From Longimicrobiales bacterium (GTDB lineage Bacteria; Gemmatimonadota; Gemmatimonadetes; Longimicrobiales; RSA9), in NCBI GenBank assembly GCA_035461765.1, contig DATHUY010000153.1, positions 1-64,000 of the forward strand: 64,000 nucleotides of DNA, given 5' to 3'. Below the pieces are notes generated by a model that did not search any database, was not told where the DNA came from, and was given only the letters and a program-made list of their open reading frames with translations. This document shows, piece by piece, positions 19,998 to 22,690 of this stretch; the first letter of the stretch is position 1, and every line of letters starts with the position of its first letter. A program made the translations under genes and the position numbers.

Positions 19998-20819
19998 TCA
20001 GTCCCGCTCCGGCGGCAGGATGTCGAGCGACGCGATGTGCGGGGCCTCCCCGATCCGGGCGGCCAGCTCGTAGAAGTGCAGCAGGCCCTGCTGCATGGCG
20101 GGATCGAAATCGAACCTGAGCGAATGCCAGTACTGCAGCAGACGATCCGACGTGAGGCCGAAGCCGGGCGCGTAGCGCGCCGCGAGCTCGTCGGCGTGCA
20201 GGCTGAACCATGCGCGCGATTCGCGCAGCAGTGCAGCCAGCCGGCGGACTTCACCGCTGTCGGCATTGCGGCGCACCTGCCATACCGCGAACGCAAACGG
20301 CAGCCCGGTCCAGTCCCACCACGCCGCTCCCAGATCGTGAGCAGCGCGACCGGAATGGACGGGGTGGCGCAGCGCGATGTCACCGATCCTCAGCGCAGCA
20401 GCCGCACCGCCGGCAACGGGATCGCACGTATCGGACTGCTCGAACCACTCGTAGCTCGGACGCACTCCCACGCGCAGCTCGAGCAGCACGCGCAGCAGCA
20501 CGACCGACGTGGCGGACGCAGTCGGGATCGCGACGACCGCACCATCGAGCTGGTCAAGCGGCACGGCACTCTCCAGCAGTATGCTCTGGACCGGACCCGC
20601 CGAGCCTATGGCGTGACCGGGGAGGATGGCGTACTCACCGGCGTGGCGCGCATACTCGATGCTCGAGCACGGCGCAACGTCGACCGTGCCGGCCGCGAGC
20701 GCGGCGTTCAGCCGCGACGGGATATCCCGAATGAGCTCTACATCGCGCGCACCGCGTTCCAGCAGCAGAGCATGCACGGGAACGCAGTTGCTGTAATCGA
20801 TATGACCGAGGCGGATCAT
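19998..20819 (-). CDS. mqnA: Chorismate dehydratase (futalosine pathway)
   Basis: A 273-residue MqnA, which removes water from chorismate to give 3-enolpyruvyl-benzoate, the first step of futalosine-dependent menaquinone synthesis. It starts MIRLGHIDYSNCVPVHALL, the family's near-invariant opening, then DIPSRLNAALAAGTVDVAPCSSIEYARH and the loop with the SNP-type specificity residues. Length is normal. It is divergent from a second MCE gene and their start codons overlap on opposite strands (CATG, 20817-20820). A TATTAT at 20833-20828 on the minus strand, 8 nt before the ATG, suggests a leaderless start. The other mqn genes are not in the window. Confidence 0.93.
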   Translation of the reverse strand: MIRLGHIDYSNCVPVHALLLERGARDVELIRDIPSRLNAALAAGTVDVAPCSSIEYARHAGEYAILPGHAIGSAGPVQSILLESAVPLDQLDGAVVAIPTASATSVVLLRVLLELRVGVRPSYEWFEQSDTCDPVAGGAAAALRIGDIALRHPVHSGRAAHDLGAAWWDWTGLPFAFAVWQVRRNADSGEVRRLAALLRESRAWFSLHADELAARYAPGFGLTSDRLLQYWHSLRFDFDPAMQQGLLHFYELAARIGEAPHIASLDILPPERD

Positions 20820-21780
20820 GGCGGGCGATAATAACACGGCGGGCAAGCCGCGCCAGACGCGACGCGTCGTCACCGGCACTTTCATCATCATCGGCCTGGC
20901 CGCCGGCGCACTCCTCATCTTCTTCATGGACAGCCTGCTCAGCTCCCTCGAGCGGAACTACACCATCCACGTCGTGCTGCCCGGCGCGACCGGGCTCGCG
21001 CCCCGCTCACCCGTATGGGTCAGTGGACACCAGGTCGGCTCCGTCACGTCCGTCGGGCTGCTGCCGGCCGGCGGTGATTCACTCGCACGCGTCATCCTCG
21101 CCGTGTCGCTGCCCGCCAGCGTGCAGTCGCACGTGCGCGCAGACAGCGAGGTGCGCATTACCTCCATCGGCCCGGTGAGCGAGCCCGCTGTCAACATTTC
21201 CGTCGGCTCCGCTGACGCCGCCATGCTCTCGCCTGGTGACACGCTCATGTCGACGCGGCGCACCTCGCCCGCGCAGCTGGCCAGTCGCGCGGCGATCGTG
21301 AAGACCGACCTCGATCGCGCACTCGCCGAGCTCCAGGCACAGACCCCCGGCATTTACGATCGGCTTCAGCAGACGCAGCGTGCGTTCACCGGACTCGACG
21401 CAGTCCTGCTCGAGGCGCGTCAGCTGCAGACCGACCTCGACGCCAATCCCGGCATGGCCCTGCTCCAGGACCCGTCATTTGCAGCGTCGCTCGAGCGTAC
21501 CCGCGGGCATGCGGCTGAGCTCCCGCTGATGTTCGGCCGCCTGCGCGACAGTACCGGACCTGCCGCCGAGGTGCAGGCTGCGATCGCGCGGCTCCAGCTC
21601 CGCGCCGACTCGCTCAGCACTCAGCTCGCCGCCGCAACAGCCGCGCTCGACAATCCGAACGGCACCCTGTCCCGCATGCAGCAGGACACGGCCATCATGC
21701 GCGCCGTCAACGCGGCCCGCGCCGAGCTGGATTCGCTGATTGCGGACATGCGTCGTAATCCGCTCCGCTACGTCTTCTAG
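20818..21780 (+). CDS. Second MCE-domain protein (MlaD-like)
   Basis: A 320-residue protein with an N-terminal signal-anchor helix (VVTGTFIIIGLAAGALLIFFM, about residues 17-37), an MCE domain (about 45-135: YTIHVVLPGATGLAPRSPVWVSGHQVGSVTSVGL) and a long Gln/Ala/Leu-rich helical tail (about 150-300), ending NPLRYVF. It is a paralog of mlaD at 17.4 kb but not adjacent to a permease or ATPase gene. It may be an alternative subunit for the same ABC transporter or part of a different lipid path. The start codon ATG 20818 overlaps that of mqnA in antisense; GAGGCGG lies 7 nt upstream. The next feature is a 28-bp inverted-repeat element. Confidence 0.9.
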   Translation: MAGDNNTAGKPRQTRRVVTGTFIIIGLAAGALLIFFMDSLLSSLERNYTIHVVLPGATGLAPRSPVWVSGHQVGSVTSVGLLPAGGDSLARVILAVSLPASVQSHVRADSEVRITSIGPVSEPAVNISVGSADAAMLSPGDTLMSTRRTSPAQLASRAAIVKTDLDRALAELQAQTPGIYDRLQQTQRAFTGLDAVLLEARQLQTDLDANPGMALLQDPSFAASLERTRGHAAELPLMFGRLRDSTGPAAEVQAAIARLQLRADSLSTQLAAATAALDNPNGTLSRMQQDTAIMRAVNAARAELDSLIADMRRNPLRYVF

Positions 21781-21785
21781 CCTCC

Positions 21786-21969
21786 GGACGCGGCACCCGT
21801 TCTGCATTCTGGCTTGTCCGGAAATCATTCCGCCCGGAGCCCATGGTGCCTGGCGCGCGTACCGGCACCACGTCACCACGGCGCGCACGTTCGCCGCGAC
21901 CTCGTCAGGCGTGATGCTGAAACGGCTGCATGGCCGCATGGGCCAGAATGCAGAACGGGTTCCGCGTCC
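21786..21969. repeat. Intergenic element with 28-bp inverted repeats
   Basis: Arms 21786-21813 and 21942-21969 are inverted copies with a single mismatch in 28 bp, around 128 nt of interior. It fills the gap between two convergent genes (stops at 21780 and 22017). No transposase, U-tract or clear target duplication is visible. It could be a MITE-like element or a long-stem RNA structure. Confidence 0.75.
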
Positions 21970-22016
21970 GGCGGGCTCGGGCAGAGACCGCCGGCGACGC
22001 GGCGGCCTGACGACCG

Positions 22017-22364
22017 TCAGGAGCGCCGCTTCTGCGTCCTCTGACCGTCGATCGTAAAGACGAGCGGTTCCTCGCCGCCGGGCGGGGCAGTCTCGACAAT
22101 GATGCGGCGCACGACGCCCTGCGGGTCGTCGAGCTCCACCTCGAAATCGACGCGCTGCTCGCGTGAGGTGATGCGTGTGCGGATACGACTGCCGGGCGCC
22201 TGCTCGCGCTTCGCGCCATTGCGGAACAGCGTCTTCGTCGACTGACGGCCGCTCTCCAGCGTGCGCGTGACCTTCACCAGCCGCAGCCAGTCCGGCTGAT
22301 AGCTCAGCTCGTAGTCTTCGCCTCTCTGATCCGATCCACGAGCGTCGCGGTTGTGGCGGGCCAT
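22017..22364 (-). CDS. Unknown small beta-rich protein
   Basis: A 115-residue soluble protein with no recognised family. The middle reads LSYQPDWLRLVKVTRTLESGRQSTKTLFRN followed by SRIRTRITSREQRVDFEVELDDPQGVVRRIIVETAPPG, which suggests a sandwich of beta strands. The C-terminus is basic (GQRTQKRRS). The start is ATG 22364 with GGAGA 5 nt upstream; the longer open frame upstream is unsupported. It is divergent from rho by 326 nt and convergent with the inverted-repeat element. A TTGACA stands on its strand about 70 nt upstream, but the -10 spacing is poor. Confidence 0.7.
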   Translation of the reverse strand: MARHNRDARGSDQRGEDYELSYQPDWLRLVKVTRTLESGRQSTKTLFRNGAKREQAPGSRIRTRITSREQRVDFEVELDDPQGVVRRIIVETAPPGGEEPLVFTIDGQRTQKRRS

Positions 22365-22690
22365 GCGGTCTCCAGCCTGAGTAAACAAATCGTACGACGG
22401 GGGACGTATACTTCGGAGACCCTCCGACCGTGTCAAGCTGTGGCATCCGTACAGCATGCCGCGCGGGCCAAGTACGATCCTTGCATTCCCGCGTCACACG
22501 ACTCTTGACCGCCGTTTTCCTGCGTGGTAGACTGATCGGCATAACCCGCGACAATTACCTCCCGCATCACGGAGGCGCGAGCCACGCGCCGACCTTTCCT
22601 GGTCGAATATCAAGGTCCGTCCAGACAAGTGGCCAACCGTGGACGGAGTCGCTCACCCGACGTTCATACCATGCACAACCGGAGTGATCC
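22365..22690. other. 326-nt divergent gap: rho promoter and leader
   Basis: This gap holds the rho promoter (22505-22533), the roughly 150-nt rho leader, and on the minus strand a TTGACA (22435-22430) that may belong to the small gene ending at 22017. CGGAG/CTCCG repeats lie at 22415-22427. No small ORF with a convincing start was seen. Confidence 0.5.
22505..22533 (+). promoter_or_regulatory. rho promoter
   Basis: TTGACC (22505-22510), a 17-bp spacer and TAGACT (22528-22533). Transcription would start near 22540, leaving a leader of about 150 nt before the rho GTG at 22691. Confidence 0.6.

Follow-up and report, generated by a model that had tools for sequence, protein, structure and literature searches.

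Within the 64,000 nt of DNA from a Longimicrobiales bacterium that were analyzed here (the window), two convergent genes are separated by a unit with long, near-perfect inverted repeats at its ends, which raises the question of what such a unit is and how it came to be there. The original prediction proposed a MITE-like or REP/BIME-type element, or alternatively a structured RNA.

The inverted repeat consists of 33-nt arms at positions 21781-21813 and 21942-21974, complementary at 31 of 33 positions (94%), with exactly the predicted 128 nt between them. Across the 29-nt core (21785-21813) there is a single mismatch (C/A, arm position 10), which bears out the claim that the arms differ at one position. 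The near-perfect repeat was likewise correctly described, although its arms are slightly longer than the 28 bp first given. The left arm (21781..21813, + strand) carries the core CGGACGCGGCACCCGTTCTGCATTCTGGC and the right arm (21942..21974, - strand) the core CGGACGCGGAACCCGTTCTGCATTCTGGC when read inward. Between them lies a spacer or loop (21814..21941) that contains no gene and shows little conservation among copies of the unit. In total, this miniature terminal inverted repeat (TIR) hairpin element measures 186 bp (21785..21970) and falls in a class of 185-190 bp, of which 17 members were aligned. As predicted, it occupies the gap between convergent genes, in this case between the stop of an MlaD-like ORF (20818-21780, + strand, named from a reading of its sequence), whose stop codon lies 4 nt before the element core, and the end at 22017 of a 146-codon ORF (22017-22457, - strand), both ORFs being given as context only.

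No inverted repeat of such kind was found in 40 windows simulated with a first-order Markov model that matched the dinucleotide make-up of the real window, which contains one. The folding energy of the unit is -122 kcal/mol, compared to -86 +/- 4.6 for shuffled sequences (z = -7.8). The peptide (H/N)PFCILA, which had been noted as readable from the arm on each strand, arises when the conserved arm is translated in a single frame and was rejected as a gene.

A dispersed family of hairpin elements

A BLAST search with the unit gave 115 matches in its own genome, a number that does not equal the number of elements, since left arms are matched by right arms as well. Two full-length copies of the window element, 69% and 68% identical, are located at C31:22338-22531 and C136:6162-6355, respectively. 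A search with the arm pattern identified 122 arms in this genome (60 forward and 62 reverse), compared to three control matches. Based on the pattern and BLAST searches together, approximately 60 elements related to the window unit are spread over intergenic sites of its own genome, along with 30-38 in a congener, showing that the unit is not single copy. From the fetched loci, at least 54 convergent arm pairs were assembled in the own genome (G000) and 19 were read in the congener (G001). The sizes of the elements are bimodal, with 27 of the at least 54 pairs spanning 130-131 bp from end to end and 17 spanning 185-190 bp.

The arms share the consensus CGGACGCGGMACCC, of which positions 1-9 (CGGACGCGG), the first nine positions of the core, are almost invariant among 108 arms of the own genome. 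Other positions of the stem, including 10, 15, 16, 22, and 23, vary jointly on both sides, and among aligned members the pairing survives changes between A-T, G-C, and C-G. There are 1.4 mismatches between arms within elements compared to 3.2 between elements, a difference reached in none of 10,000 permutations, and this covariation could partly come from both arms being copied as a unit. The covarying arms and the poorly conserved spacer show the unit to be a long hairpin whose stem measures approximately 29 bp, in which the two ends are constrained and the loop is free to vary.

Repeats of other kinds were also observed beside the elements. Tandem duplications of the arm adjoin some of them, at L135:523-732 (40-nt units), L122:3027-3191 (17-nt units), and L054:401-565 (35-nt units). 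Many adjoin short tandem repeats at the 3′ ends of genes, as in the flanks of L051, L054, L059, L066, and L119, and the reading frame of a gene can extend into an arm, for example in L119, where ANQPE repeats are followed by the arm.

An arm-bracketed transposase gene

A search for Y1/HUH transposases in the own genome identified two genes. One of these encodes a RAYT-type HUH transposase (C107:99547-100530) and is flanked by arms with the same ends as the miniature elements, at 99504 and 100585. In the congener, the orthologous locus holds a RAYT gene whose product is 73% identical, and this gene is also flanked by arms (C390:2038 and 3118). The C107 protein matches Pfam Y1_Tnp above the cut-off, NCBIfam REP_Tyr_transpos (E 6e-18, with a score short of the curated cut-off), and the solved structure of TnpA-REP (PDB 4er8, E 3e-5). 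Residues H69, H71, and Y128 are invariant across eight relatives, as is N132, forming the HxH and Y---NP motifs. At the C-terminus, residues 284-325 give a weak match to HTH_23 (E 0.0013), which is below the Pfam cut-off. The second gene is a RAYT paralog with 47% identity, the locus of which is orthologous in the two species (L073:1800-2738 on the - strand and L117:2183-3106), and no such arms were found around it within the 5.5 kb fetched. RAYT is the only transposase seen encoded between such arms. Each of the two genomes has a single bracketed transposase gene, and its locus is the same in both, so the gene for the enzyme has not jumped recently.

The numerous relatives of the unit, together with a REP-type tyrosine transposase bracketed by arms with the same ends, support the MITE-like or REP/BIME-type reading of the original prediction, which had suggested a search for a related transposase; the best fit of the two is a MITE-like form combined with a REP-type transposase. 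It is very probable that the unit is a non-autonomous miniature TIRtron element and that the RAYT/TIRYT-type transposase at C107:99547-100530 is its likely mobilizer.

A possible mechanism is suggested by analogy with the IS200/IS605 and TnpA-REP enzymes, and cleavage and strand transfer by TnpA-REP have been documented (PMC8266576). The analysis shows the structure of the elements, their association with the transposase, and the differences in occupied sites between the species, while movement of the elements by the C107 enzyme, the position of the nick, and any current mobility are inferred. In single-stranded DNA, the arms (29-33 nt) and the free spacer would form one long hairpin, the arms of which may be recognized by the transposase. 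The conserved ends (CGGAC..., with a species-specific base in front) would be nicked, and copies would be inserted without target duplication, mostly between genes.

Element sites and bracketed genes in two species

Among 61 related genomes, a multi-copy arm family and a close RAYT are each present only in the same two, the own genome and that of the congener. Two further genomes contained one isolated two-mismatch match to the pattern each, a frequency equal to that of the control. When GTDB contigs were scanned with the exact-arm pattern, only the congener was found, Gemmatimonadetes bacterium SH-MAG3, a match that assigns the window to Gemmatimonadota. The arms of the congener carry either CGGACGCGG or CGGACCTGG, with both sides altered together.

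The window site is occupied in both species, with the element at a near-identical spot after the stop codon and its sequence diverged. Seven further sites are occupied in both, the RAYT and ylxP loci among them, and the congener has no element at the sites orthologous to L043, L056, L065, and L059, the last of which has repetitive flanks. If approximately 1500 intergenic sites are assumed to be usable, chance alone would produce about one shared site, and the chance probability is 2e-6 for at least nine shared sites and of the order of 1e-5 for the eight counted. Most of the shared sites are therefore either inherited or strongly preferred.

A site common to two species, located between convergent genes and occupied by a stable hairpin with compensatory changes, could also be explained by a structured RNA or transcription terminator that is retained for a host function at gene ends. 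The dispersed copies with divergent loops, the differences between congeners in which sites are occupied, the absence of the family from the other 59 relatives, and the tie between the arms and a transposase all count against this explanation, which we regard as very improbable. An Rfam search with the unit returned only a spurious plant miRNA match, which was far below threshold and was caused by the symmetry of the sequence. For a miniature TIRtron element, a side role as a bidirectional terminator or 3′-end stabilizer between convergent genes is possible.

Target duplications, which the original prediction had proposed to look for, did not exceed the shuffled expectation at lengths of 2-8 bp and end offsets of 0-3 nt. 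The flanks beside the elements are 71-87% identical between the species and are too diverged to fix the exact insertion junction. A classical MITE, mobilized by a DDE transposase and having IS-type TIRs, would account for the terminal inverted repeats and the high copy number, but would be expected to leave such duplications, and the only transposase gene between arms of this kind is a RAYT; this alternative is thus highly unlikely. The base directly outside the arm is G in all 38 congener arms (mostly as AG), while 102 of the 108 arms in the own genome have T or C there (mostly as GT or GC). Either the true end or the cleavage site may include this species-specific base.

Gene-sized segments were also found between convergent arms. 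These contain genes identified from their translations as copA (L077:2796-5554), an amidohydrolase (L075:4889-7053), and, in both species, ylxP/DUF503 (L045:405-880), as well as a segment of two genes (L119:1679-3141). Lone arms would be expected to produce a mean of 0.02 convergent gene-sized pairs, assuming that there are 12 lone arms. Mixed (discordant) arms were present in four of five gene-sized pairs compared to four of 49 miniature elements (Fisher p 0.001), and four gene-sized pairs, including that of the RAYT gene, have the same mixed types, GGAACCC upstream and GGCACCC downstream. Horizontally acquired cargo was considered as an explanation and rejected for copA and the amidohydrolase, since in the congener both genes occupy the corresponding position and have no arms around them. 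This implies that the arms came to these genes or that the congener lost its arms there. It is conceivable, if rather doubtful, that the transposase can set its two ends around resident genes (copA, amidohydrolase, and ylxP), leaving them bracketed as its own gene is. If so, the bracketed genes would be potentially mobile or insulated units.

Comparison with known systems

TIRtrons are RAYT-like genes (TIRYT) that are flanked not by GTAG REPs but by terminal inverted repeats, and some TIRYT genes have dispersed families of TIRs (Di Nocera et al. 2013, PMC3733652). A later survey placed most TIRYTs in TnpA-REP subclass 2.1, whose members are long, have an HTH at the C-terminus, and lack nearby REPs (PMC6006769). 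The present system matches TIRtron/TIRYT better than it does GTAG REP/REPIN. It includes a RAYT-type HUH Y1 transposase, the gene is bracketed by terminal inverted repeats in both species, dispersed pairs of the TIRs occur elsewhere in the genome, and there is no GTAG REP. The match to an HTH at the C-terminus of the transposase is weak. It differs in its strict hairpin units of two sizes (~131 and ~187 bp) and in its arms (CGGACGCGGAACCC...), which do not contain the GGGGWSAS motif; this motif is common in the TIRs of TIRYTs, but not universal.

Classical REP/BIMEs or REPINs are pairs of GTAG-type REP hairpins mobilized by a group 2 or 3 RAYT. Like the elements described here, REPINs are non-autonomous, extragenic inverted doublets that form a hairpin with a free spacer and have an associated RAYT gene (Bertels and Rainey 2011, PMC3116915), and the RAYT gene in this genome is at a vertically kept locus. 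However, the foot of the arm does not have a GTAG/CGTC tag, and no GTAG-type tetranucleotide was found at the hairpin foot in the arm alignments. The ends are instead long TIRs, and the elements, at 131-187 bp, are longer than the spacing of 71 bp given for the GI doublet (PMC3116915). In addition, the protein resembles subclass 2.1/TIRYT, which was reported without REPs (PMC6006769), and the palindrome within the arm, CCRTTCTGCAGAAYGG, is not maintained through compensatory substitutions (at position 16, C pairs with 25 A in the comparison). A hairpin formed by a single arm was rejected as the recognized REP, as covariation gives it no support. A REP/BIME or REPIN origin is accordingly considered unlikely.

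The two genomes represent a clean two-species TIRYT system with intact catalytic residues, belonging to the Gemmatimonadota, a phylum not named as a host in PMC3733652 or PMC6006769. It combines two strict size classes, both empty and occupied sites, and a base outside the ends that differs between species, making it a good test case for how a RAYT-type enzyme chooses its ends without a GTAG REP, and for whether host genes do in fact become bracketed. In other Gemmatimonadota, related RAYT transposases are also encoded between inverted repeats (L160, L162-L164, L167, L168, L170, L172, and L173), but their protein identity is ~25-34% and their arm sequence differs, being GGGGTCAGAG, which carries the GGGGWSAS motif. 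Little weight attaches to the lack of flanking repeats at several other loci, such as L090 and L092, in which the reading frame was lost at indels. The retention of this motif around the other Gemmatimonadota RAYTs suggests that the TIR family of the present genus has diverged, and the elements most likely constitute a new TIR family of the already known TIRtron/TIRYT kind.
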